A stretch of 64,000 nt of DNA from a virus. The notes below the pieces were generated by a model. That model did not search any database, was not told the DNA's origin, and worked only from the letters and a program-made list of their open reading frames with translations. Position 1 is the first letter of the stretch. The number at the start of each line of letters is the position of its first letter. Both the position numbers and the translations under genes were made by a program. Location of the stretch: positions 1 through 64,000 of IMG/VR virus record IMGVR_UViG_3300018954_000017; one strand, written 5' to 3'. Below, piece by piece: positions 1-52,912 of this stretch.

Positions 1-420
1 GAGTTGGGCAGATTGAAGAAAGATTTCTCGTAGATCACGCGCTCGGTCGCTTGGGCTTAACCTCTTCACTAAGGTTACGAGGTTAGCCCGTCTCCGTCGC
101 TTAATAGACTCGTTTTGCTCACGCCTCCGTAGAGAAATGCAGGTTTGTTCGCTATTGCTCACGGAGCAAAGCTGACCTAACTTACCATCATCGTCTTAAA
201 GATCTAGAACAAGGGCTAGTCTATTAACTCGGAAAATAGACACGTAAACTACCCGTGCAGAAGATGTTGGATCGGTGTAGATCTTTTAAATACGATTTCG
301 CCCCCGCAAATTTCGCCTCAGAGCCGCGCAGACCGATGAACCAGCCAATCCCACCACTTACCCCGTAGACACCGCTTACTGCCGCACCCAGGCACATTTC
401 CCGCTAAGTTTACGCTAGCG
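1..420 (+). ncRNA. Candidate structured RNA element, copy 1 (5' end cut)
   Basis: Noncoding, no recognised RNA family. Positions 181-300 closely match 26146-26265 and 35044-35162; the 44-base core 257-300 differs from them at only one to three positions. Predicted pairings: TTAAAGATCTA (196-206) with TAGATCTTTTAA (278-289); GTCTATT (219-225) with AATAGAC (235-241). A hairpin peculiar to this copy is GGGCTTAACCTC (53-64) with GAGGTTAGCCC (79-89). A C-rich, G-poor tail follows (about 330-420). The first bases match the inside of copies 2 and 3, so the window starts within the element. It lies upstream of the tail-fibre operon. RNA status is inferred; a DNA role such as an origin or packaging site is possible. 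Confidence 0.45.
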
Positions 421-9282: not shown

Positions 9283-9639
9283 TTACTCCTCGATAGTCCG
9301 CAATCTCAAAATATCTTGCGCTCCCCTCTTCCACAGACTCGCCCACCAATATTCCCAACTAGCCTCATTTTCGCAGACTTCGGGGCAACTTTCAATCCAA
9401 TTGGTAATTTGAAAGCTCAACTGAATGAAATCATCAGTAGACCAAGTGCGACAAGTAGCTGACTCTAGCCACTTATGTTGAATGTCTTGGCAGATAGCTT
9501 GAACTTTTACCCCAGAGATCTTCGTCCGGACAGCGGGAAGTTCAATTTTAGTCAGACTAACATTGTAAACTTTGCCGTACATTGAGATGACGCTAATTGT
9601 TTGCAGCGCATCGTACTGTCTTAGCATTTGAATTTTCAT
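9283..9639 (-). CDS. Hypothetical Trp-rich protein
   Basis: 118 aa with eight Trp residues, most in the C-terminal half (for example WEYWWASLWKRG). Overlaps the upstream gene by 4 bp. No domain recognised. The aromatic-rich C-terminus suggests a protein- or membrane-interaction surface. Confidence 0.6.
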   Translation of the reverse strand: MKIQMLRQYDALQTISVISMYGKVYNVSLTKIELPAVRTKISGVKVQAICQDIQHKWLESATCRTWSTDDFIQLSFQITNWIESCPEVCENEASWEYWWASLWKRGAQDILRLRTIEE

Positions 9640-9833
9640 CGTAACTCCTTAGTATTCAAAAGCCGCCTATAGAAGCTGTGAGCATTGAGCAAGTCCCGCG
9701 TCGTCCCTGCAATGATTCGTTGATCATGCAAAATTTCAATGGAACGCGACTGGACTTGGGCTATGAGCTTAAAATTATTGCTCACGGCTCCTAGCTGATA
9801 GCTCAGGGCTTGTAGGCGGCAGATTCTAGTCAA
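9636..9833 (-). CDS. Small basic hypothetical protein
   Basis: 65 aa, rich in Arg and Leu with a helical composition. Its stop overlaps the next start by 4 bp. No family recognised; the charge could fit nucleic-acid binding. It starts 11 bp after the SSB2 stop. Confidence 0.45.
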   Translation of the reverse strand: MTRICRLQALSYQLGAVSNNFKLIAQVQSRSIEILHDQRIIAGTTRDLLNAHSFYRRLLNTKELR

Positions 9834-9843
9834 TTACAGAGAG

Positions 9844-10224
9844 CTATTCAAAAGGGAAATCATCATCATCAATTTCACTTGCTTCAGTCTCCACCGTCTC
9901 TTGGCTGATGTTTGGGGTTTTTGTTGGGCTACCAAATGACTCAAGTCGGTTAATGGTGAATTCGGGCACGGTACGATTGCCTGCATCAGTAGCTACTTTA
10001 TTCATTCGCAGACTACCTTCCATGACGACCATAGCACCCTGTGGAATGCTATGGAGAGCATCAGCTACCTTTCCGAATGCAACGGCTTTGATGGTCGCGT
10101 TGGCGGCTTCCTTGGTGCGTTCCACGAATTGAACGTAAGTGGTGCAGATAGGTTTCTGATCTGATGAAGTGTAGCGAAGTTCAGGCTGCTGGATTAATGT
10201 TCCGTACAATGTGGCAGAGTTCAT
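9844..10224 (-). CDS. ssb: Single-stranded DNA-binding protein, paralogue 2
   Basis: 126 aa from the ATG at 10224 (MNSATLYG); a longer frame reaches 10284 but its extra 20 residues do not look like SSB. An OB-fold of about 100 aa ends in an acidic tail EIDDDDFPFE, close to the canonical DDDIPF partner-binding tip but with one extra Glu. SSB coats phage ssDNA during replication and recruits partners through this tail. It follows a second SSB gene directly. A TACTATTGTGC-type sequence upstream (about 10250) recurs before the gene starting at 21424 and may mark its own promoter. Confidence 0.85.
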   Translation of the reverse strand: MNSATLYGTLIQQPELRYTSSDQKPICTTYVQFVERTKEAANATIKAVAFGKVADALHSIPQGAMVVMEGSLRMNKVATDAGNRTVPEFTINRLESFGSPTKTPNISQETVETEASEIDDDDFPFE

Positions 10225-10329
10225 GACAATGTTTAGTAGGTAATGTTTACTATTGTGCGAGGTCAGGTTTAAGCTATTAGCCATGAGCCTTTAGAAGAAT
10301 TAAAAGCTCATAGCCCACGGCTCACAGCT

Positions 10330-10671
10330 TTAATCTTCGTCGTCTGGAGCAGCATTTGTATCGCTACGGCTCCCCAACAGCTCAATCTCGTCAACATGAA
10401 TGACTGCTCGTGACCGCTCTTGACCCGTTTGCTTGTCATTCCAACGGTCAAATTTAAGATGACCTTTGATAGCCACCTGTTTACCTTTGGTCACATAATT
10501 GGCGATCACTTCCGCTGTCTTCCCCCACGCTTCACAATTAAACCAATCGGGTGCATCATCTTTTTTGCGGCGATTGACAGCTAAAGTGAACTGGGACTTA
10601 ACCGTGCCAGACTCAAAGTATTTGACATCTGGATCTCCACCGACGCGACCGACTAAAGTAACACTGTTCAT
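10330..10671 (-). CDS. ssb: Single-stranded DNA-binding protein, paralogue 1
   Basis: 113 aa, standard bacterial/cyanobacterial SSB OB-fold: MNSVTLVGRVG start, then DWFNCEAWGKTAEV and GKQVAIKGHLKFDRW. The acidic C-terminus ends APDDED and lacks the usual terminal Pro-Phe, so partner recruitment may be weaker than in paralogue 2. AGGAG lies about ten bases before the ATG. First gene of the minus-strand replication operon, preceded by a long leader with a promoter near 11005-11034. Confidence 0.9.
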   Translation of the reverse strand: MNSVTLVGRVGGDPDVKYFESGTVKSQFTLAVNRRKKDDAPDWFNCEAWGKTAEVIANYVTKGKQVAIKGHLKFDRWNDKQTGQERSRAVIHVDEIELLGSRSDTNAAPDDED

Positions 10672-12573: not shown

Positions 12574-13785
12574 TTAGAGTTTTGACCAAGGTATTACTCT
12601 AAGGTTCCCACAAGACCTTCGGACACAAACACGGGGTTCCTCATCTTTGTCCCCGTCATGCCACAAATAATCTGTCACAAGGTCATCCAGCAACCCTTGA
12701 GGCACCTCATCACACTCGGCTTCTGCTTTGTAACCCTCAACTATTGGATACAACTTGCCCCGTTCTAACTCTTTCTGAAACCTAGTCAGACTTTTGTGCC
12801 AGGAACCCTTCAAAAGCCCCGCTTCTGACAACCTATGCTTAACTGTTATATAGACCCGACTACATTCAGCAGGATCGGGAGCTATACGGGGCTGCAAGGT
12901 AGGTTCAAAGGGTGGCTCGTCGGATTGGGCGTCCCACGGGTCGGGCGGGTTTTGCGGGGCTTCTAGCGCGGGTTCGGCTGGCGAAATTTGCGCGGCGGAA
13001 ATCGTATTTAATTGACCACACTGATCCATTATCTTTTGCACGGGTATTTCATCTTCTCGTCTTCCGGGTTCACTAACTAGCCCGTGTTCTAGATTCTTTT
13101 TCGATGAATCGAAGTCAGTAAGGCTTGCCTCCGGATTCTCTTCACGAGTCAACTTAGCGTCGGGAGCCGGAGCAGACCCCGTAACCTTAGTGCAGGGGGC
13201 TAGCTCCGAGCAACCAGAGCGAGATATAGACGAAGAATCTTTTTGTAGATCTCGATCAGTCTCATTTAGTCTTATTAAGTCTAGAGGAGAATAAGAACCA
13301 GACAGGGAAAGGGTTTCGCTTTCGATAGCGTGTCTTTCCTGATCGATAGCGTGTCTTTCCTGATCGATAGCGTGTCTTTCCTGATCGATAGCGTGTCTTT
13401 CCTGACACGGTATTTCTTTTGGTTCCAAAGGTTCTGAATTCGACTGTGCATTGGTTTCGCCCTCTTGGGCTTTCCAATAATCCATCTCAGATCCATGCAA
13501 GTTCTTGACCATCCAGTGTTGGATTTTACGTCGATCACGTCCGTAATATTTCGGTTCAAACTCGAATAGTCCTTCATCTTCCAGCACCAGTCTCGCCCTT
13601 TTGAAGGAAGTTTCTTTTAAGTGGGTTTTAAGTGGTTTGAAATTTTCTCCGAACGGATCTGCCAACGATGCCTCAATCCACAATTTGATAACGCACTCGT
13701 TCTGCGTCAACAACCACTCTCCATCATCTTCCGACATTTTTGCAAAGCGCTTGTTCAATCTTTTTGCTACACTTGACTTACTCAT
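12574..13785 (-). CDS. Winged-helix-like DNA-binding protein, candidate replication initiator or regulator
   Basis: 403 aa from the ATG at 13785 (AAGG eight bases upstream). The N-terminal ~95 residues form a compact helical domain that aligns with the whole of the plus-strand protein at 34281-34619: shared CV..LWI, FG..F, T.L.E.SF..A and W.V.N.HG..YW. The centre is low complexity with four ERHAIDQ repeats. A C-terminal domain of about 100 aa is unfamiliar. The fold is inferred from the alignment and composition. Paired palindromes lie just past its 3' end, as for its paralogue, suggesting a protein-site module such as a Rep with iterons or a repressor with operators. Confidence 0.5.
   Translation of the reverse strand: MSKSSVAKRLNKRFAKMSEDDGEWLLTQNECVIKLWIEASLADPFGENFKPLKTHLKETSFKRARLVLEDEGLFEFEPKYYGRDRRKIQHWMVKNLHGSEMDYWKAQEGETNAQSNSEPLEPKEIPCQERHAIDQERHAIDQERHAIDQERHAIESETLSLSGSYSPLDLIRLNETDRDLQKDSSSISRSGCSELAPCTKVTGSAPAPDAKLTREENPEASLTDFDSSKKNLEHGLVSEPGRREDEIPVQKIMDQCGQLNTISAAQISPAEPALEAPQNPPDPWDAQSDEPPFEPTLQPRIAPDPAECSRVYITVKHRLSEAGLLKGSWHKSLTRFQKELERGKLYPIVEGYKAEAECDEVPQGLLDDLVTDYLWHDGDKDEEPRVCVRRSCGNLRVIPWSKL
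13322..13405. repeat. Four tandem 21-bp repeats inside the winged-helix-like gene
   Basis: Unit about GATAGCGTGTCTTTCCTGATC, four copies nearly identical at DNA level, encoding the heptad ERHAIDQ on the minus strand. Near-identity at third positions implies recent expansion by slippage; copy number may vary between relatives. Confidence 0.85.
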
Positions 13786-13845
13786 TGTATTAACCTTCAA
13801 TGACACTAGATTCGCCGTCGTCAGCCATTGCAGCTTGCGGCGGCT

Positions 13846-14146: not shown

Positions 14147-14572
14147 ATGAAACGCACCCCAAACGACCAACCCCGTCGTCCTCGCACAGTCTACCTCACA
14201 GACGCCGCCTGGGAAGCTATAGAGGCAATGGGAGCACGAAAGGGTTACTCTCGGTCTGAAATGATTGAGCAGGCTGTGAGACAGAATGTGGCTATGTATG
14301 AGACTTTGCCAGCAGAAGTTGTTGCTGTCTTACGATCTCCCGAAGGATGGAAATTCACAGACTCTGGAAAGTTAATGGGTGCTTATCGAGGAATACGCAT
14401 CCTTTTGCATTTTGAAGATTCTAATTGGGTAGCAAACTTTTTCTCTCCAGGTCACGATATGATTGTTGGTCATTCTTGTGAAGGTGACCTGATTACAAGT
14501 GTTGAGTATGTCCAAGATTATATCGACTCATTCTTGGATGATGACAAACTTCCATTCACCGACGATTTCTAA
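14147..14572 (+). CDS. Ribbon-helix-helix protein with C-terminal extension
   Basis: 141 aa. Residues about 12-55 form a CopG-like unit (RTVYLTDAAWEAIEAMG ... YSRSEMIEQAV). The C-terminal ~80 aa are an unrecognised acidic domain. Follows the first RHH gene by 50 bp and ends before a strong terminator. Possibly an antitoxin-like regulator, but no toxin partner is visible. Confidence 0.65.
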   Translation: MKRTPNDQPRRPRTVYLTDAAWEAIEAMGARKGYSRSEMIEQAVRQNVAMYETLPAEVVAVLRSPEGWKFTDSGKLMGAYRGIRILLHFEDSNWVANFFSPGHDMIVGHSCEGDLITSVEYVQDYIDSFLDDDKLPFTDDF

Positions 14573-14652: not shown

Positions 14653-14745
14653 GCTAGCCATAGTCTGACTATTGTGGGGCGAATGAGGGGGATGAGGCAG
14701 GGACTGAGAGGGGTTCTAGATACTATTTAAAATATTTTTGTTTCA

Positions 14746-15160
14746 AAACCGGACACCTGATCACAAAATCCGGACTGTCCGAAATCTCTACGTATGCGCC
14801 TCACTAAATGACACATGGTGTACTTGGTGTCCGAATTCACTGTCCGGTTATTAAGCCAGTCCTATTGACTGTCCGAGTTTTACATTTCGCGGATTTTTAC
14901 TGTCCGAATTCTAAAAATATGATAGACATCCACCAATTTGCTGTGGATAGCCATCAATATTTATCTGCCAGCGCCCAGTATTTCTAACAACTAATGACTG
15001 ACTACTGAACACTCTATTGCAATCTATTCTCAACAACTACCTTACTAAGTATTTATACCTGTCCGAATTTACTGTCCGGTTAGGTGTCCGGTTTTATCAA
15101 GCCTACTTATAGGCACATTGTCACTGTCCGAATTTGTTGTCACAAGCAAAAGTAATTCTT
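14746..15160. repeat. TGTCCG repeat array, copy 1 (noncoding)
   Basis: About 415 bp without a gene. It holds about nine direct CTGTCCGAATT-like motifs (near 14775, 14828, 14840, 14869, 14900, 15060, 15073, 15085, 15125) and inverted CCGGACACC / CCGGAC at the left end. The centre has no such motifs but is conserved with copy 2 at 51448-51842 (shared GTGGATAGCCATCA, CTCTATTGCAATCTATTCTC). It could be an iteron origin, a partition site, or a mini-transposon with multi-site ends. Purpose unknown. Confidence 0.7.
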
Positions 15161-15211
15161 TAGCCTACAAATGCTCGACCAAAGTATTACTAAAGATGAC
15201 TATAGTTGCCA

Positions 15212-15243
15212 TAGAAAAGCCCTCTAGTTAACTCTAGAGGGCG
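15212..15243 (-). terminator. Rho-independent terminator
   Basis: Minus strand: GCCCTCTAG pairs with CTAGAGGGC around a short loop (15219-15242), followed by TTTTC. It ends the minus operon whose last gene stops at 15269. Confidence 0.8.
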
Positions 15244-15268
15244 CGTGAGAGGCTTTAGGTAGCTGTTG

Positions 15269-15511
15269 TTAACGGTCGTCGTGTTGCGGGATTGTGAACC
15301 AACTGTTAAGCCATTTACCTAGTGCGGGATCTGCAAGTTTGACTGATTCATAACAATTGCTTGCCAATGAACTTGCAAGTTTTTCACCAAAGATTATGCC
15401 AGCCAAATCACAGAGTCTGGACATTTCCCTTTGGTCTTTAGCGAACACTGCGTCGATGAACTTATCAGTGAATTCATCCTCAGTCATCTCAATCGGTTGA
15501 AAGAATCTCAT
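15269..15511 (-). CDS. Hypothetical protein
   Basis: 80 aa, helical, N-terminus MRFFQPIEMTED. Overlaps the upstream 37-aa gene by ATGA. No family recognised. Last gene before the terminator at 15212. Confidence 0.6.
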   Translation of the reverse strand: MRFFQPIEMTEDEFTDKFIDAVFAKDQREMSRLCDLAGIIFGEKLASSLASNCYESVKLADPALGKWLNSWFTIPQHDDR

Positions 15512-15621
15512 ACTCGCTCCAAATCCAACTCATCAATTATCTTACCAATCCTATCTGTCACTTCTTGCAAGATTGCTTCGCATACTAGATACTTCTTAAG
15601 TGTTACGAAGTAACCTTGCAT
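15508..15621 (-). CDS. Small hypothetical protein
   Basis: 37 aa, MQGYFVTLKKY..., a predicted helix with an acidic C-terminus. Supported by the 4-bp stop-start overlap with the next gene. No domain recognised. Confidence 0.45.
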   Translation of the reverse strand: MQGYFVTLKKYLVCEAILQEVTDRIGKIIDELDLERV

Positions 15622-15808
15622 CTCTCGTGCCAATTGCTGCCAACGTTCCGCTCGTGGTTTGACATTTGCTACTCAAGACAGCAGATGTTGCACTACATGA
15701 AAGGTTGCTTCGCAACACTAAAGATGTTTGTTTAATCTTGCGAAGCAAGTTTGCACCTGAAGCACTACCTGCGGTTAACGGGTTTCTGGGTTTGATTGCG
15801 CCTGGAGT

Positions 15809-16189
15809 CTAAAAATACTCAAATCCTTTGTTCAACAAAAGTTCTCTTGTGATATCTGGTGTGTGCTGAAGTTCTGCATATAGGGCTTCAGCCTCTTCTG
15901 TTTGATCTAGAGTGAAATCTTTGATGATACCGAGGTCGTCATTGCCCCAAGCTGCAACACGGACGAATGACGACGCGGGATTAGTATGAACGGTGCGACT
16001 TATTTTTAACTCCACATACTCTTCACCGTCCCAACTCCACGGTTTGGTGTCATCATAATACGCAGGACGATCTGCATTCATTCCGTACCGCTCATAGAAT
16101 GTTGTGCCGTCTTCGTAGTAGTTGCCACACCACTGATCGGAAGTTTTGACGAAACAACTTTTTTGATAGCTTCCTTTTAAATCTAGCAT
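15809..16189 (-). CDS. Hypothetical protein
   Basis: 126 aa, rich in Tyr and Trp (for example YYDDTKPWSWDGEEYVE). A GGAGG sequence precedes the ATG. No family recognised. The 190 bp downstream (15622-15808) holds only repeat-like sequence (GGTTGCTTCGCAACAC near 15706). Confidence 0.6.
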   Translation of the reverse strand: MLDLKGSYQKSCFVKTSDQWCGNYYEDGTTFYERYGMNADRPAYYDDTKPWSWDGEEYVELKISRTVHTNPASSFVRVAAWGNDDLGIIKDFTLDQTEEAEALYAELQHTPDITRELLLNKGFEYF

Positions 16190-16248
16190 TTCATCCTCCG
16201 GTAATCAGTAAAACCTTTTTTGATAGCAAATGTGACCCTGAGTGAACT

Positions 16249-16509
16249 TTAATCATCTCTCATCCTTTCTAACCTAAATTGAGAAGACTCGTCTTGAGCA
16301 ATGTAGTCGTCATTGGTTCGCTTCACAACAGCGATTACTTCGTCGGGCATATGCGGATCATACAGCCAATACTCGTTAGCTGTCAGAGTACCAAAGATTC
16401 GCTTTAGATGGCAATGGTAGCTTGTGCTGTATCGCTCGCACCCGCTACTTTTGGGTGGCGTTGGATTTAGGTTGGCAAACGGGCAGTTGATTGCTTTACA
16501 AATGTTCAT
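16249..16509 (-). CDS. Hypothetical Cys-rich protein
   Basis: 86 aa with four Cys in the first half (C4, C9, C24, C33) plus His nearby, suggesting a small metal-binding module followed by a strand-rich C-terminus. No known family. The upstream 300 bp to 16811 have no supported gene and contain another GGTTGCTTCGCAACACTT repeat (about 16605). Confidence 0.55.
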   Translation of the reverse strand: MNICKAINCPFANLNPTPPKSSGCERYSTSYHCHLKRIFGTLTANEYWLYDPHMPDEVIAVVKRTNDDYIAQDESSQFRLERMRDD

Positions 16510-16811
16510 TTTAGTTCCCTAAATTACTGTCAGTGTGATTAGATTCGACCTCCACTATCATGTCATGAGCTAGCTGTTGATCCCAATAGAATCTCGCGTA
16601 CCAAGGTTGCTTCGCAACACTTAACTTGTTTAATTGGTGACCGAAGTGAACTTGCATAGACCGAGAGAACCAACGGAGTAGATGGAACCAAGTTTAGTCA
16701 TTCGAGTCGTTTGGTGGGTATCTACTAGTAATTTTACATTAAGCGAATGCGTGTGTCTACAGTATCCTAGACTCCCCTGGCAAGCTAACGTAGAGCTAAA
16801 GTCCACTTACA

Positions 16812-17687
16812 GTGAGTAAAACGAACGTGCCACCAAAGCCAGAGGAATATCGGTACATTCAGGGAAAATTTGGGAACGGAAAGATTCCGATGTGTGGGTG
16901 TAAGCGGGTCAAATGCCGCGATTGTGGGCGTCGGTTCCCGAAAGAAGAACACGAGCTAGACGATTGCCCCGATTGTGGGAAGGAACGATATTGTACGAAT
17001 GCAAGAATCAAAGATCCAAATAATCCTGGCAAGTGGTTACCTTGCTCGATCCACGGGGGAAAATCTTTTAAGTCTAGAGGAGCTGCTCATCCAAATTACA
17101 AGGATGGTAAATATAGCCGCCATATGCCTGCTAGACTCCTTGAAGCTTACGATCAATCTCGCAATGACCCAGACATTCTCTCACTTAACGAAGACATCTC
17201 ACTCACGGAAGCTAGAGTTGCTGACGTACTCCAACGGGTAGACACCGCTGAGTCTGGCGCGATGTGGGATGAGTTGAGTAAGTTGGGGAAGGAGATTAAA
17301 CTTGCTCGTAAGTCGGGCGATCCTGGTCTAGTCGAGGATCTGTTTGACGAGATGTTGAAGTTGATTGCTAAGGGTAAGGGCGATCGCGAGAACTGGCGGG
17401 AGATTGGCGACCTACTCGAACGTAAGCGAAAACTCTCTGAGAGCCAGCTCAAGCTACTTGTGACGAAGCAAGAGTTCATTAGCCGACAACAGGCAGTCGT
17501 CCTCGTCAGTCATCTCGTAGAGGTCGTTAAGACTCATGTGACAGACTCTAACACCAAGAGGCGCATCATGGGCGGCATTAGTCAGCTAATGAACTTGCAA
17601 GAGGGACAGTCAATCTCAGAGATACCTGGATTGACCAGTTTTCAGGAGAAGAAGGTTGAAGTGGAAGAGTTTGATGACGACGATTAG
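16812..17687 (+). CDS. Candidate small terminase subunit / zinc-ribbon protein
   Basis: 291 aa from GTG. The N-terminal Cys-rich region (C28, C30, C35, C38, C52, C55, C61) looks like one or two zinc ribbons. It is followed by HGGKSFKSRGAAHPNYKDGKYS and a helical region (about 105-280), a layout I associate with phage proteins next to terminase genes. DNA recognition for packaging is therefore plausible, but no large terminase ORF lies in this window, so this stays tentative. It is an isolated plus-strand gene in a minus-strand block. Confidence 0.45.
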   Translation: MSKTNVPPKPEEYRYIQGKFGNGKIPMCGCKRVKCRDCGRRFPKEEHELDDCPDCGKERYCTNARIKDPNNPGKWLPCSIHGGKSFKSRGAAHPNYKDGKYSRHMPARLLEAYDQSRNDPDILSLNEDISLTEARVADVLQRVDTAESGAMWDELSKLGKEIKLARKSGDPGLVEDLFDEMLKLIAKGKGDRENWREIGDLLERKRKLSESQLKLLVTKQEFISRQQAVVLVSHLVEVVKTHVTDSNTKRRIMGGISQLMNLQEGQSISEIPGLTSFQEKKVEVEEFDDDD

Positions 17688-17923
17688 AGTGAAGCTAGGT
17701 AGCCTCTCAAAGCTTTTACTGCGCCTTGCAAGCTATCCCATTGAGTCAATTCTTCAGAATTCTCGTTATTTGTAGCTTCGGTGTAAAGTCCACCACTAAT
17801 ATCACCAAAGAGTTGCATATATACAATGGTTTTGCTTTTCATGTTAATTTGTTTGAGCAGTTCGCGCATTTGCCAAAGTTGCTCAAGCTCAAACCTTTCG
17901 GAATCGGATAGATTGTCTAACAT
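17684..17923 (-). CDS. Small hypothetical protein, IW.LF-like family
   Basis: 79 aa from MLDNLSDSERFE (AAGGAT upstream). Resembles the neighbour at 17967-18176 and the product of 22919-23182: a leading amphipathic helix, a central strand pair with acidic/Gly residues, then a closing helix with a W(D/G).L..A(V/I)..L..YL pattern. Function unknown. Converges with the terminase-like gene with a 4-bp overlap. Confidence 0.6.
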   Translation of the reverse strand: MLDNLSDSERFELEQLWQMRELLKQINMKSKTIVYMQLFGDISGGLYTEATNNENSEELTQWDSLQGAVKALRGYLASL

Positions 17924-17944
17924 CGTTGTATCCTTTATAGTTTT

Positions 17945-17959
17945 GCAGTAGATGCGCCC
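17945..17959 (-). promoter_or_regulatory. CATCTACTGC intergenic motif
   Basis: Minus strand GGGCGCATCTACTGC, followed by CTATAAAGG and the start of the gene at 17923. One of at least fourteen similar motifs ahead of small minus-strand genes in 17.9-31.1 kb. Confidence 0.5.
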
Positions 17960-17966
17960 AAGTTTG

Positions 17967-18176
17967 CTATTGGTCACCTAAGTATTGCTTAAGCCTTTCG
18001 ATGGCGTCGTCAAGATTGCCCCAATCAACCAGCAAGGCGTAATTATCACCAATTAGAGAACCTGAACCATCTTCAAATAGAGTGATTTCAGGATAACTCA
18101 TGCTGCACTGATTTTTAATTTGACAAAATAGTCGCCAGATTTGCACTAACTTCTCTTCATTCGCTGTCAGATTCAT
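17967..18176 (-). CDS. Small hypothetical protein, IW.LF-like family
   Basis: 69 aa, MNLTANEEKLVQIWRLF start and C-terminal AIERLKQYLGDQ. Paralogue of the products at 17684-17923 and 22919-23182. A central FEDGSGSL hairpin is conserved in type. Function unknown. Confidence 0.6.
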   Translation of the reverse strand: MNLTANEEKLVQIWRLFCQIKNQCSMSYPEITLFEDGSGSLIGDNYALLVDWGNLDDAIERLKQYLGDQ

Positions 18177-18582
18177 GAGCCAGCTCCTCCTGTAATTTAT
18201 CCATTTGTGGTTTCAACGCCTCATGAACTTCTTCAGTCAACCCTAGCGCATCACAAGCTGACATTAGCTGACCGGGGGTGAAATCTCCTTGGTGACTACG
18301 GTAGTCACCGAAGATGCTCTTGAGCTTATGGTAAGCTGTGGTTGCTACAGTATCTTCGTATAAGTCGCGGTCTGAGAGGTGGATACGGTACGATGCACCG
18401 TAACAGGTATCATGTAATAGATCTTCAAGTCGAAACCGTACATCTCGTGGAACTTCGGAAACCTCAAAATACTTGCGACCAACTGTGGTAACAGTGACCC
18501 ATTGACACCGTTTAACTCCTGCACCTTCAAACCGTAAATTGAGTCTCTCTAAGATAACTCTCTGACCAACTTCAAGTTTCAT
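18157..18582 (-). CDS. Hypothetical protein
   Basis: 141 aa from MKLEVGQRV (18582), with GGGAG upstream; five extra codons upstream are possible. The N-terminus is strand-rich (EVGQRVILERLNLRF), the C-terminus helical and acidic. No family recognised. Overlaps the downstream gene by 20 bp. Confidence 0.6.
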   Translation of the reverse strand: MKLEVGQRVILERLNLRFEGAGVKRCQWVTVTTVGRKYFEVSEVPRDVRFRLEDLLHDTCYGASYRIHLSDRDLYEDTVATTAYHKLKSIFGDYRSHQGDFTPGQLMSACDALGLTEEVHEALKPQMDKLQEELAHESDSE

Positions 18583-18583
18583 C

Positions 18584-18712
18584 TTACTCTCTCCCACATC
18601 CAGGTACGGGTGATTCAGTTCTTTGTGAGCATTCGTCGCTATTGTCAGCTATTGCGGACGGAATGACGGTCACCGCTATTAGGGCTAGTAAAGCTAGGCA
18701 AATAGTTTTCAT
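18584..18712 (-). CDS. Small secreted protein candidate
   Basis: 42 aa. MKTICLALLALIAVTVIPSA is a textbook signal peptide with an ALA-type cleavage region, leaving a mature peptide of about 20 aa with two Cys (a possible disulphide). Overlaps the preceding gene by ATGA. A secreted or periplasmic peptide encoded by an early-region gene could act in superinfection exclusion or lysis; that is speculation. Confidence 0.5.
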   Translation of the reverse strand: MKTICLALLALIAVTVIPSAIADNSDECSQRTESPVPGCGRE

Positions 18713-18840
18713 GCTTTCCTCTTCTTTAGTGCGTCTTTGGTGTCTACATCAATCATCTTATATCCCACGGCAGTGTTAATAACCTCTGCGACTACGATGA
18801 TACTAACTAGAATTGCGATCGACTCTAATGTCTCTTTCAT
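18709..18840 (-). CDS. Small membrane protein
   Basis: 43 aa with one predicted transmembrane helix (IAILVSIIVVAEVI, about 8-21) and a basic C-terminus (LKKRKA), so N-out/C-in by the positive-inside rule. It overlaps the next gene by ATGA, and a CATCTACC-type motif lies just upstream (18861-18874). Role unknown; paired with a secreted peptide it resembles accessory membrane cassettes of phages. Confidence 0.5.
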   Translation of the reverse strand: MKETLESIAILVSIIVVAEVINTAVGYKMIDVDTKDALKKRKA

Positions 18841-18860
18841 GTTACTTGCTCTGAAGGTTA

Positions 18861-18874
18861 GCGGTAGATGCTCC
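18861..18874 (-). promoter_or_regulatory. CATCTACC intergenic motif
   Basis: Minus strand GGAGCATCTACCGC ahead of the membrane-peptide gene (start 18840). Member of the recurrent motif family. Confidence 0.45.
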
Positions 18875-18891
18875 TGTAATCTATAGCCAGT

Positions 18892-19179
18892 CTACAGTTC
18901 GGCAAGGGCGGCGTCAACTGTGTCGAACCAATATTCAGAAAGCAACATGACCAAATTTCGACTGCCATCAGGTCGGTGTCCAATGATAGCAATGCATTCA
19001 TCAGCAACATCGCCATCAAATACTTCAACATCAGGAAACACCCGTCTGGTAATTGATGGCGATGTTGCTGATGCTCGTCTCCAAATCTCGTCAAACTTTT
19101 TTTGGTCACTATCGGAAATTACTGCACAGCCATAGAAAAACATTAGATCTCGCAATTGTTGCAATTCTTCTTTCATCAC
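18892..19179 (-). CDS. Hypothetical protein
   Basis: 95 aa; the start (ATGATG) overlaps the upstream stop by ATGA. Helical N-terminus, strand-rich centre, C-terminal FDTVDAALAEL helix; it may be distantly related to the IW.LF-like family. No function recognised. Confidence 0.6.
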   Translation of the reverse strand: MMKEELQQLRDLMFFYGCAVISDSDQKKFDEIWRRASATSPSITRRVFPDVEVFDGDVADECIAIIGHRPDGSRNLVMLLSEYWFDTVDAALAEL

Positions 19180-19523
19180 TCTCTCTCCACGTAAATTCCG
19201 TTGTGAGCTGTAACTAGCACTCGCGCGCCGGAGTAGACAGGAGCACCTGTAGTTTGGTCAACAAATGTTGCAAACTTGTAAGGGTTGTAAATCACCCAGC
19301 GAGCATTTTCTCTGTTAAAGATTCGGTCTACATCCAAGACCCAGGCGTAAGGCGTCTCAAATGCTTGCTCCAACATTCCTATAGTGAACGCATGAACATT
19401 CTTCTGCTGCTCTCGCAACACTCGCTGCTTGCCCGACTCTCGCACCCTAAATTCAACATCGGTCAATATTACTGCCTCAGCATGTTCGCTTCGCTCAACT
19501 CGTGCAGAAGATTTGTCTGTCAT
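19176..19523 (-). CDS. 3' part of a split phage gene
   Basis: 115 aa from MTDKSSAR. After a short atypical start it continues AVILTDVEFRVRESGKQRVL, which I recall as the middle of a phage-conserved protein whose N-terminus resembles YVYRNL. That N-terminal part is encoded immediately upstream in another frame (19495-19641). The junction lies in a small repeat. Either this is a decayed gene or the downstream part is reinitiated. Function of the family unknown. Confidence 0.5.
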   Translation of the reverse strand: MTDKSSARVERSEHAEAVILTDVEFRVRESGKQRVLREQQKNVHAFTIGMLEQAFETPYAWVLDVDRIFNRENARWVIYNPYKFATFVDQTTGAPVYSGARVLVTAHNGIYVERE

Positions 19524-25984: not shown

Positions 25985-26433
25985 GTTAATTCTTTTATTC
26001 GTTCCTCATAAAAGAATTAACTACGGTGCGCTAATCGCGCAAGCTGGACGGTCAGGAGGATGATTGAGAAAGAATACGGATTGCTCACGCCTATACGACC
26101 AATCTAAGGGGTATTCGCTGCGCTCATGGGCAAAGCCTGACCTGACTTACCATCATCGTCTTAAAGATCTCGAATACGGGCTGGTCTGTTAACTCGGAAG
26201 ACAGATACTTAAACTTCCCGTGCAGAAGATGCTGGATCGGTGTAGATCTTTTAAATACGATTTCGTCCCCGCTAAAATCGCCAAGAAGCTGCCCCAAATT
26301 CCGCGAACGTCCAATCCTACCCGCGACCCCCTAAACCCGCCCTCCTGCCCCGTACAGCCGCCTCTGAGCTAACCCACACGCAACCCATCCACCCTACCTA
26401 ACAGAGCTAGCCGCCCAACTAACGCAAAATCGT
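25985..26433 (+). ncRNA. Candidate structured RNA element, copy 2
   Basis: Begins with a perfect 14-bp stem GTTAATTCTTTTAT / ATAAAAGAATTAAC (25985-25998, 26008-26021), then TGCGC / GCGCA (26027-26031, 26037-26041). Core pairings: TTAAAGATCT (26161-26170) with AGATCTTTTAA (26244-26254); ACGGG (26176-26180) with CCCGT (26217-26221); TCTGT (26185-26189) with ACAGA (26201-26205). The first and last inner stems differ in sequence from copies 1 and 3 yet still pair. A C-rich, G-poor tail (about 26290-26420) ends at AACGCAAAATCGTT. The 775 bp between genes hold no convincing ORF. Confidence 0.5.
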
Positions 26434-34883: not shown

Positions 34884-35335
34884 GGTTATTTACTACTCAC
34901 TTCGTTCGTTGTAAATAACCTCCGTGACGCAACAAGTTGCGAGTTGGACAGTCAGGAGGATGATTGAGAAAGAAAGAATTGCTCACGCCTCTACGACCAA
35001 TCTAAAGGGTGTTCGCTGCGCTCACGGGCAAAGCCTGACCTGACTTACCATCATCGTCTTACAGATCTAGAACACGGGCTAGTCACTACGAACGAAGATG
35101 AACACTTAAACTTCCCGTGCAGAAGATGCTGGATAGGTGTAGATCTTTTAAATACGATTTCGCCCCCACTAAAATCGCCAAGAAGCCGCCCCGAATTTCG
35201 CGAACGTCCAATCCTACCCGCGACCCACTAAACCCGCCTTGCTGCCCCGTACAGCCACTCCTGAGAGAACGCGCACCCTGCCTATCTACCTCGACTTACA
35301 TGTGCAACTTCTAGACTAACGATTTTGCGTCAATC
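34884..35335 (+). ncRNA. Candidate structured RNA element, copy 3
   Basis: Starts with GGTTATTTAC / GTAAATAACC (34884-34893, 34911-34920) and CGCAAC / GTTGCG (34928-34933, 34936-34941), stems at the same places as in copy 2 but of different sequence. Core stems: AGATCTA (35063-35069) with TAGATCT (35140-35146); ACGGG (35074-35078) with CCCGT (35114-35118). The 44-base core is 35119-35162. The C-rich, G-poor tail runs to about 35310 and ends at AACGATTTTGCGT, which is the reverse complement of the end of copy 2's tail. A promoter for tiny peptides follows. No known RNA class recognised. Confidence 0.5.
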
Positions 35336-35352
35336 TAGCCTCGTGCTACAAT
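35325..35352 (+). promoter_or_regulatory. Promoter after element copy 3
   Basis: TTGCGT (35325-35330), 16-bp spacer, TACAAT (35347-35352) in TGCTACAAT, as also found after element copy 4 (50708-50716). Confidence 0.5.
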
Positions 35353-35382
35353 GATGATTAAGAATTCGACAGAGGAGTGCAA

Positions 35383-35451
35383 ATGTTAGATTTTGTGTTG
35401 CTACTGATTTGGTTAGGGTTTCTGTTGTGGCTAGTAAGCTTGGCGTGGTGA
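35383..35451 (+). CDS. Tiny membrane peptide 1
   Basis: 22 aa, MLDFVLLLIWLGFLLWLVSL, one hydrophobic helix; GAGGAG is seven bases before the ATG and a promoter lies 30 bp upstream. Resembles type I toxin-like or holin-accessory peptides in size and composition. Confidence 0.5.
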   Translation: MLDFVLLLIWLGFLLWLVSLAW

Positions 35452-35454
35452 GAT

Positions 35455-35532
35455 ATGATGATTGACTTGTTTTTGATTACGTTGTGGTTTATGTTTTTGA
35501 CTTGGGCACTAATGCCACCAGAAGATGATTGA
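35455..35532 (+). CDS. Tiny membrane peptide 2
   Basis: 25 aa, MMIDLFLITLWFMFLTWAL helix and acidic end (MPPEDD). Begins three bases after peptide 1 stops, so probably co-translated. Followed by about 110 bp of noncoding sequence and a terminator. Confidence 0.45.
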   Translation: MMIDLFLITLWFMFLTWALMPPEDD

Positions 35533-35645
35533 GGAGATTTAAGAAGACAATATTGGTGGAATTTACCAAAACTACAGGATTAATTAATTGTGCTATTCTC
35601 ATTATTAGGCACAGCCTAGGGATTGTCGTTATGACTGTCGTAAAC

Positions 35646-50297: not shown

Positions 50298-50354
50298 CCA
50301 ACAATAGCTTGCACTAGCAACGTAAGTCCGGTTTCTAGTAAAGAGACAAACCCG

Positions 50355-50390
50355 ATTCACAGTAAATTGGGAAAGCCAATTTACTTATAT
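50355..50390. promoter_or_regulatory. Paired palindromes, 24-bp spacing, second site degenerate
   Basis: ATTCACAGTAAAT (50355-50367) and ATTTACTTATAT (50379-50390). Same 24-bp register and intervening sequence as at 34692. Upstream of element copy 4. Confidence 0.5.
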
Positions 50391-50422
50391 ACATAGATGA
50401 TCTATTCATATATAAAATCTAA

Positions 50423-50710
50423 CTATCTCGCGTAAACGCTCGAACACAGATAGCTGATTGAGTATAAGTAAAGAATCAACGGCGACCTTACTCTTGCTCA
50501 ATGAATTTGGAGATCTACTTAACGGGCTAGTGATTCCGAACGAAGAAGAGCAGACTTGTACCCGTTCCTAGATGATGGATCTGTGAGGTAATAAAGATAA
50601 GCCCCAAAAATCGCCTGCAACCCGCCGCAGCACCGCAACCACCTCACACTACCTTGACCTACCTCAACACCTGCTCCTGCCCCCCTAGCCTTACTTAAGC
50701 CAACGTTTGC
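50423..50710 (+). ncRNA. Candidate structured RNA element, copy 4 (divergent)
   Basis: CTATCT / AGATAG (50423-50428, 50448-50453) at the 5' side; AACGGG (50521-50526) pairs with CCCGTT (50561-50566), one base pair longer than in copies 2 and 3; AGATC (50511-50515) pairs with GATCT (50578-50582). Sequence identity to the other copies is patchy but GGGCTAGT and the C-rich, G-poor tail (about 50596-50700) are kept. Ends at a TGCTACAAT promoter. The most diverged member; it lacks the 44-base core identity. Confidence 0.35.
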
Positions 50711-50995: not shown

Positions 50996-51436
50996 ATGTA
51001 TTTTGCTACGACGAAACAATTTAGAGATTATTTATTTAAACTGCTTCAGCCCTACATTGGCAGCGCAAGATTGGCTGGAGGAGCTGTTGTGCCTGCCATT
51101 TTTGTTGGAGAACCTCCTATTGATACTCGCGTGACCGGAATGGAAGTGTCGCTGCCCAAAGACTCTAGCGGCAACAGTCAAGGGTTAACGGGCGGCATTG
51201 CTCCAACCAACAAGTTTGAATTCAGACTCATTCAACATCCAGGCAGTGACTTCTTAAGCCAAGCTAAAGACACAGTAGTCTCACATATGACTCCGATAGA
51301 TTACAGGTTCGTTGCGGCTGCTAGGGCACCAGCAGGGCAGAAAGAAGAACAGCTAACTTTAGACCAATATGTATTTAGTTTTAGTCGTAGTGCTTTAGTT
51401 TTACTGCCATTCAGGCAAGCTTTAACTACTATTTGA
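50996..51436 (+). CDS. Tail-module protein, unknown (possible tail terminator)
   Basis: 146 aa, mixed alpha/beta (FRDYLFKLLQPYIGSARL, then strands). Position between completion protein and tube protein suggests a tail terminator or neck protein. No direct family match. Ends just before the TGTCCG array. Confidence 0.5.
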   Translation: MYFATTKQFRDYLFKLLQPYIGSARLAGGAVVPAIFVGEPPIDTRVTGMEVSLPKDSSGNSQGLTGGIAPTNKFEFRLIQHPGSDFLSQAKDTVVSHMTPIDYRFVAAARAPAGQKEEQLTLDQYVFSFSRSALVLLPFRQALTTI

Positions 51437-51447
51437 AATTTGCTCGT

Positions 51448-51842
51448 TTCAAACCCGGACACCTGATCATCAAATCCGGACTGTCCGAGTTTCCACACCA
51501 ATATGACATAAAGTAAAACTACATGTACGTAGCTGTCCGATTTACTGTCCGATTATTAAGAACTCATTGTTGACTGATGCAGCCGCTTCGCTCACTGTCC
51601 GATTTCTGAAAACGTGGTGGGTATCTGTCAAATTTGTGTGGATAGCCATCAGCTTTCAGGTATCGGCTCTCAGTTTTTATAACAACTGATCCCTCATTAC
51701 TGATAGCTCTATTGCAATCTATTCTCAATAACCCGTTAACTAAGTATAAATACTTGTCCGAATTTACTGTCCGATTAGGTGTCTGGTTTTTCTAGTACAA
51801 ATGTTCTAGTGTCCGAATTTGTTATCACGACCGCAAATAATT
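51448..51842. repeat. TGTCCG repeat array, copy 2 (noncoding)
   Basis: About 395 bp, same order and orientation of landmarks as copy 1 at 14746-15160: left CCGGACACCTGATCA and CCGGACTGTCCGA, paired CTGTCCGATT motifs, the motif-free conserved centre (GTGGATAGCCATCAG; CTCTATTGCAATCTATTCTC), right CTTGTCCGAATTTACTGTCCGATTAGGTG and a final GTGTCCGAATTTGTT. Motif bases vary but the spacing is kept. Confidence 0.7.
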
Positions 51843-51943
51843 TCTATACTCATCCATCAACTTTAAGCTATTAATAAAAACTACTTCTATGGATTCACAG
51901 TATTCTTACGCAAAACAATTATTGGCAAATGTCTACTGTTAAA

Positions 51944-52027: not shown

Positions 52028-52912
52028 ATGGCTCAACAAGCAATTTGTCTTGATCTACTTGAATCAACTGGAACTCAGCTATTTGCTGGACTCGTACCAG
52101 TCGGCAGTTGTGTTCCTACCCCCTACACGGTTTCATTAGGCGCAGCTATTGCAATTGGCGACGAGACTGCAACTGTTACAGCTCTTCCTGTCGCCTTACC
52201 TCGTGGTAACAGACTGTCTTTTAGTCAACTAGTTACAGTGACTACAAGTGCAGCCGTGACCCCTGGCGCTACTACTATTGCTGTAACAGCCTTAGGTTCA
52301 GCAATTCCTGCAAGCACAACCCTCAAATTTGGCAACATCACAGTTCAAACGACTGCCGCATCTGCGCTTGGTGCAACTTCTTTGGTGGTCAACCCTGTTC
52401 CTGCTGCGATCGCGAGTGGAGCAACCGCTACATATCGTCCTAATCCTGTGACGATTGTTTTAGCCGCTGATGCTCCGGCAGCTGCAACAACAATTACCAT
52501 TGATCCTGCTCCAGCCATTGTTGGTACTGGTTTGACCGCTGTAACGTATGCTCTACTAGAGCTGTTGGGTGGTGAGTCTGCTCCCTTCCAAGGTTCAACA
52601 GAGCTAAACCAGGTTACCCTGTTAAACTCTGGTGGTTGGATGTCCAAGTCTGCATCTCAATCGCAGTACAACTTCAGCTGGACTGGTTACATTCCGGAAA
52701 ATTCAACCGCTGCTGCTGGCTATCGTCTGCTAAAGAATGCTTGGTTCAACAAGCGTTATCTTTACGTTGAGCGATACATGGCAAACGGCGAAATGACGGG
52801 TGGAACGGTTATTATCACTGCCTTCTCTGACCAAGTTCAAGGTGCAGGGTATGTTCAATACCAGTGTACCTTTGAAGGTCATGAAGCGCCTGTGTACACG
52901 TTTGCTGGCTAA
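52028..52912 (+). CDS. Major tail tube protein with inserted Ala/Thr-rich repeats
   Basis: 294 aa. The middle (about 30-170) has three to four short beta repeats of the type TTIAVTALGSAIPASTTLKF, and the C-terminal third is a compact tube-like domain ending FEGHEAPVYTFAG. Similar repeats decorate tail tube proteins of phages from cyanobacteria. The repeat stretch is Ala/Thr-rich and nearly charge-free, giving lower coding complexity than its neighbours. Followed by the chaperone genes. Confidence 0.65.
   Translation: MAQQAICLDLLESTGTQLFAGLVPVGSCVPTPYTVSLGAAIAIGDETATVTALPVALPRGNRLSFSQLVTVTTSAAVTPGATTIAVTALGSAIPASTTLKFGNITVQTTAASALGATSLVVNPVPAAIASGATATYRPNPVTIVLAADAPAAATTITIDPAPAIVGTGLTAVTYALLELLGGESAPFQGSTELNQVTLLNSGGWMSKSASQSQYNFSWTGYIPENSTAAAGYRLLKNAWFNKRYLYVERYMANGEMTGGTVIITAFSDQVQGAGYVQYQCTFEGHEAPVYTFAG

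Follow-up and report, generated by a model that had tools for sequence, protein, structure and literature searches.

A dispersed non-coding array of TGTCCG sites in a large uncultured phage and a similarly arranged element in a related phage

Introduction

Transposon ends of the Tn7/Mu type carry several binding sites near both ends, the outermost of which are inverted. Theta plasmid iteron origins consist of short direct repeats clustered next to an A+T-rich stretch, while the parC/parS arrays, such as R1 parC and the omega sites of pSM19035, are short direct-repeat arrays that lie at several places and can double as operators. Published accounts of Cluster A mycobacteriophages describe stoperators as short asymmetric sites that are bound by the phage repressor and are numerous across the genome (PMC9283540, PMC6550527).

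Here we analysed a window of 64 kb, that is, the first 64 kb of the 104,255-bp phage record IMGVR_UViG_3300018954_000017. A preliminary description of this window had reported two TGTCCG arrays of about 400 bp and listed iteron-type origins, partition sites, large operators and mini-transposons as candidates. It had also proposed a search for the array in other phages and plasmids, a check for flanking target duplications and a GC-skew analysis. Our analysis shows that both arrays belong to a single dispersed element, ~430 bp long and non-coding, of which they are two copies. Among the listed candidates the large operator, i.e. a multi-site regulatory array, fits best, while the mini-transposon and the partition site are weakened.

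Results

Two arrays are copies of one element

The two copies, a1 and a2, are 71% identical along their entire length, motifs and the rest alike (blastn). The preliminary description had placed them at 14746-15160 and 51448-51842, in direct orientation and 36.7 kb apart; positions, orientation and spacing were all verified in the sequence, except that the element begins ~25 bp further left, since the copies are alike over the full length (14721-15157 and 51427-51842). The arrays were also said to encode no protein, in agreement with which no ORF of at least 80 codons is present inside copy 1 or copy 2. Copy 2 is flanked by a tail gene on the left (50996-51436) and by the major tail protein gene on the right (52028-52912). 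The parts of the two copies are as follows.

14721-15157, + strand: copy 1 (a1), whole element; blastn self-match to 51427-51842 at 71%, and nhmmer profile match
14749-14757, - strand: inverted outer site CCGGACACC of copy 1, pairing with GGTGTCCGG at 15083-15091
14770-14783, + strand: abutting inverted and direct sites CCGGACTGTCCGAA (palindromic pair) of copy 1
14776-14906, + strand: left cluster of copy 1, with direct TGTCCG at 14776, 14828, 14841, 14870 and 14901
14911-15058, no strand: site-free centre of copy 1, 65% A+T, containing a hairpin built of heptamer-type repeats
15060-15090, + strand: right cluster of copy 1, with direct TGTCCG at 15060, 15073 and 15085 in 12-13 bp steps
15124-15144, + strand: right-end site and conserved end CTGTCCGAATTTGTTGTCACA of copy 1
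51427-51842, + strand: copy 2 (a2), whole element; blastn self-match to copy 1, and nhmmer profile match
51455-51463, - strand: inverted outer site CCGGACACC of copy 2
51482-51601, + strand: left cluster of copy 2, with direct TGTCCG at 51482, 51534, 51546 and 51596
51755-51815, + strand: right cluster and end site of copy 2, with TGTCCG at 51755, 51768 and 51810 and TGTCTG at 51780

Both copies share the same layout, in which an inverted CCGGACACC on the left is followed by the abutting inverted/direct pair CCGGACTGTCCG, the left direct cluster, a site-free centre of ~150 bp, the right cluster in 12-13 bp steps, and a final site followed by GTTRTCAC. The inverted left site noted earlier is thus found at both positions listed above, and the clusters on the left and right are present in both copies. 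The preliminary description had given the motif as CTGTCCGAATT; the clustering holds, whereas exact CTGTCCGAATT accounts for a minority of sites and the constant part is the hexamer TGTCCG. Its conserved centre is indeed free of sites but is not the best-conserved part, as 77% of the motif columns are invariant versus 47% of the other columns (Fisher p 1e-5).

Exact TGTCCG sites number 10 in copy 1 and 8 in copy 2, the latter having one TGTCTG in addition. Given a + strand background of 0.05 TGTCCG per 415 bp outside the arrays, the chance of finding 9 (copy 1) or 7 (copy 2) same-strand sites anywhere in the genome is ~2e-15 and ~5e-11, respectively. Consensus sites outside the arrays occur just twice in the 104-kb record, which is the chance level, and a system of single dispersed operators or stoperators was rejected on this count. 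The heptamer-type repeats of the central hairpin also occur singly elsewhere in both this phage and the related phage described below, and small intergenic palindromes made of such repeats (TAGCTATTAGC...) resemble the hairpin (window 10263-10330; L030:4627-4719 and 10575-10665; L033:5477-5552).

Kin fragments and a third copy

At the same place as copy 2, an array is also present in a phage fragment that is nearly identical to the record (L006/G001, 95.6% over 16.8 kb). This array is a mosaic, with a left half similar to that of copy 1 joined to the right half of copy 2, which shows that copies have exchanged halves; the array centre is among the most diverged parts in this phage. The count of two copies in the preliminary description has to be revised, since a third copy (a3) was detected at 35213-35639 of a 38.7-kb contig (G003). 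The last 146 bp of this contig match the record end at 99%, and an ATPase gene split across the record and the contig agrees with the gene order of the related phage. Judging from the end overlap, the contig appears to continue the genome to which the window belongs, in which case a3 would sit ~3 kb past the record end, in opposite orientation in the record frame. The phage genome would then hold three elements in total. Pairwise identity among the copies is 71-79%, with the sites best kept.

The array and the elements of the related phage have no similar DNA in 50,697 phage and 72,556 plasmid records, which answers the proposed search of other phages and plasmids in the negative. Exact-pattern scans of viral contigs returned, besides kin, only site pairs without an array, and one exact-pattern scan of 84,980 genomes gave no true copy and a single chance-like match. 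No comparable paired array was found in CL131, a cultured phage of Nostocales whose portal matches distantly, and a synteny search via the tail gene yielded no additional useful relative. The dispersed element is real and unmatched in the collections searched.

The genome also contains a second dispersed repeat family, with about eight copies of 0.1-0.4 kb that are mostly 72-88% alike (window 1-391, 12810-13241, 26039-26393, 34939-35290 and 50332-50453; outside the window L003:3711-4118 and L004:6335-6764 and 17275-17746). This family lies partly within the ORF 12574-13806 and is otherwise largely non-coding, and the starts of both the record and G003 fall in copies of it.

A similarly arranged element in a related phage

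A related phage of 147.7 kb (G002), with ~70% identity in shared genes, contains no TGTCCG array. At the place of copy 2 it has just a 130-bp intergenic gap, which is too diverged for a precise border. It carries 0.4-kb elements of its own, D1 (2512-2888) and D2 (94122-94486, reversed), which are 80% alike and have the layout of the array, with one inverted site on the left followed by five to seven direct sites TTTC[CT]G[AG]. The first two inverted CCGGA cores, as read from the sequence, are 21 bp apart in both the array (A) and D families. All copies within one genome use the same site word; the other genome has another word in the same layout. The nhmmer profiles of the two families match each other marginally (E 1.2-3.5), yet in register and orientation.

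D2 and a3 occupy the same place in the same orientation, between a 98-aa tail gene (44% identity between the two phages) and a small HTH-like gene (36%). The operon following the HTH-like gene is also the same at a3 and D2, encoding proteins of 227 aa and 129 aa, a 259-aa membrane protein and a P-loop ATPase. In contrast to this shared place, a1, a2 and D1 are at non-orthologous places. Homology of the A and D families is proposed from layout and synteny, with the sequence similarity marginal. Three 0.35-kb repeats of the related phage (L030:8229-8580, L032:6419-6772 and L035:7628-7994) form another non-coding family, in which GATCAATTTGATC words abound.

Adjacent genes and candidate binding proteins

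Four of the five copies (a2, a3, D1 and D2) have a same-strand gene start ~50-190 bp to their right; a1 has no close same-strand gene on that side, the next one being at 16812. Two features beside the copies in the window bear on regulation.

51822-51850, + strand: promoter-like TTATCA-17-TATACT with its -35 inside the conserved right end of copy 2; a consensus match, of which about as many are expected by chance
14147-14572, + strand: gene for an RHH_1 (ribbon-helix-helix) protein beside copy 1, a candidate binder

In a2 and a3, but not in a1, a promoter-like match starts within the conserved right end, the number of such matches being near chance, and promoter scans found none at the matching spot of D1 or D2. 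RHH proteins are encoded near copy 1 and also in the related phage. The small gene beside a3, at G003:35670-36056, shows a weak HTH signal (MerR model, E 0.0016, below the cut-off), and no MerR-type HTH signal was found for its relative in the related phage. The fold model of this HTH-like protein is poor (pLDDT 66) and has no structural match; no homologues were found in the phages and plasmids searched, and the search of viral contigs returned just the two known ones. The HTH-like protein beside a3 and D2, or the RHH protein beside a1, is the candidate binder.

Host and other genes

The top-ranked portal matches among cultured phages are cyanophages, at ~31% identity, and the genes for the 129-aa protein, the 259-aa membrane protein and the P-loop ATPase (L027:17080-18245 with L004:18703-19998; L037:3249-6246) have relatives on the Fischerella plasmid AP018303. 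Together, the portal matches and the operon relatives suggest a cyanobacterial host. One of these phages carries a gene for a Ro60/TROVE protein close to one for an RNA ligase (L004:7072-8661 and 9422-10417), as well as genes for two very long proteins, a DnaE (1793 aa) and a ribonucleotide reductase of 1490 aa that includes an endonuclease-like stretch, at L003:8119-13500 and 15000-19472, both of which possibly contain inteins.

Discussion

The sites are the best-conserved part of the element, each genome uses one word, and the word changes under a constant layout, all of which argue for an operator or enhancer. The sharing of one word by the copies of a genome is as expected for a shared trans-acting protein, and the TGTCCG words most probably serve to dock a DNA-binding protein of the virus. 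We tentatively favour, with slightly less than even confidence, the interpretation that the element is a multi-site operator/enhancer for such a phage protein and that its copies arose by duplication and stay similar through recombination; that a protein binds the sites, loops the DNA and regulates transcription, and which protein this is, are what we infer from the sequences. In this model, the 9-10 TGTCCG sites would be occupied cooperatively by a DNA-binding protein that the phage encodes. This protein could join the left and right clusters, ~155 bp apart, by looping out the centre, and the bound array would control transcription leaving the right-hand end. The copy a3 lies directly upstream of the conserved HTH-like gene and its operon; the HTH-like protein may be the binder, or else the RHH protein. 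Copies would duplicate into new intergenic places, and, as recombination would keep them alike, the site word could shift in step with the binding protein.

A non-autonomous mobile element, a mini-transposon or MITE that has several sites at its ends and is mobilised by a transposase of the host, would account for a 0.4-kb non-coding intergenic element with imperfect inverted ends (AAAACCGGACACCT on both sides), for a1, a2 and D1 at different places and for the short gap of the related phage where copy 2 would be; we consider it unlikely. No flanking word of at least 5 bp is shared at consistent borders of a1, a2, a3, D1 or D2, so that the proposed check gave no target-site duplication at any of the five (a3 is flanked on both sides by TTGTTA, offset from the borders). 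No transposase or integrase domain was matched in the scanned phage proteins, the Pfam scans taking in most ORFs of the phage, and a search with PF09299 (Mu-transpos_C), run without a positive control, gave no match. The sites are mainly direct rather than inverted and are the best-kept part of copies only 71-79% alike. The phage and plasmid records and the one exact-pattern scan of 84,980 genomes yielded no true copy and no autonomous relative either. It also speaks against a mobile element that two phages keep this layout, each with its own word, at an orthologous position. The two clusters of direct repeats, spaced at 12-13 bp and separated by a 65% A+T centre, could instead belong to an origin with initiator-bound iterons or to a centromere-like partition site of the ParR/ParB type. 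The RHH proteins near copy 1 and in the related phage would suit this, as would TGTGGATA, which all four A copies retain and which differs by one mismatch from an opposite-strand DnaA box. Clustered direct repeats do adjoin an A+T-rich stretch, though the centre is only moderately so. Against it, the genome has three copies, the D elements lack TGTGGATA, no Rep-type initiator match lies beside any copy, and ParA/ParM were unmatched in the part of the proteins scanned with Pfam. Moreover, the DnaB helicase and O-like genes are far off (85.7-89.1 kb), and the GC skew tracks gene strand with no clean origin signal. We consider an origin or partition role unlikely.

A structured RNA is very improbable, even though the A copies fold more stably than shuffled sequences (z -2 to -5) and seven pairs have changed on both sides. 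The folding excess goes together with the central hairpin and the inverted TGTCCG words, is seen on both strands, and is small or absent in the D elements (z -0.2 to -1.9). As this excess is not kept in the D elements and no Rfam match was found, the RNA gene was dropped.

If the operator/enhancer interpretation is true, these phages offer a clear example from nature of a DNA element in several copies that changes together with its binding protein within a phage lineage (TGTCCG versus TTTC[CT]G[AG]), and the arrays mark control points in large uncultured phages with little known regulation. If the element is a transposon remnant or an origin instead, it is an ordinary one. It is decidedly doubtful, though conceivable, that the modular 0.4-kb array represents a new class of phage cis element, dispersed over one genome and homogenised as halves are exchanged, with co-change of word and protein between phage lineages and a lineage-specific "address word"; such an array could act simultaneously at multiple loci in gene control, replication or the organisation of the genome.

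Among described systems, Tn7/Mu-type ends likewise have several sites near both ends with the outermost inverted, whereas the array comes without a transposase match or target duplication and most of its inner sites run in one direction across both halves. With theta-plasmid iteron origins it shares clustered direct repeats, an A+T-richer stretch and, in the A copies, a DnaA-box-like word, and differs from them in its three copies, in that no adjacent initiator gene was found and in that the word is not kept in the related phage. Two direct-repeat clusters, nearby RHH proteins and occurrence at several places recall R1 parC and the pSM19035 omega sites, unlike which no ParA/ParM partner was found among the Pfam-scanned proteins of the array phage. 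Finally, the array resembles the Cluster A stoperators in having a short asymmetric site at several genome places, repressor binding being a feature of stoperators as these are reported; stoperators are described as numerous across the genome, whereas here the sites are confined to 0.4-kb arrays and lone ones occur at chance level (PMC9283540, PMC6550527).
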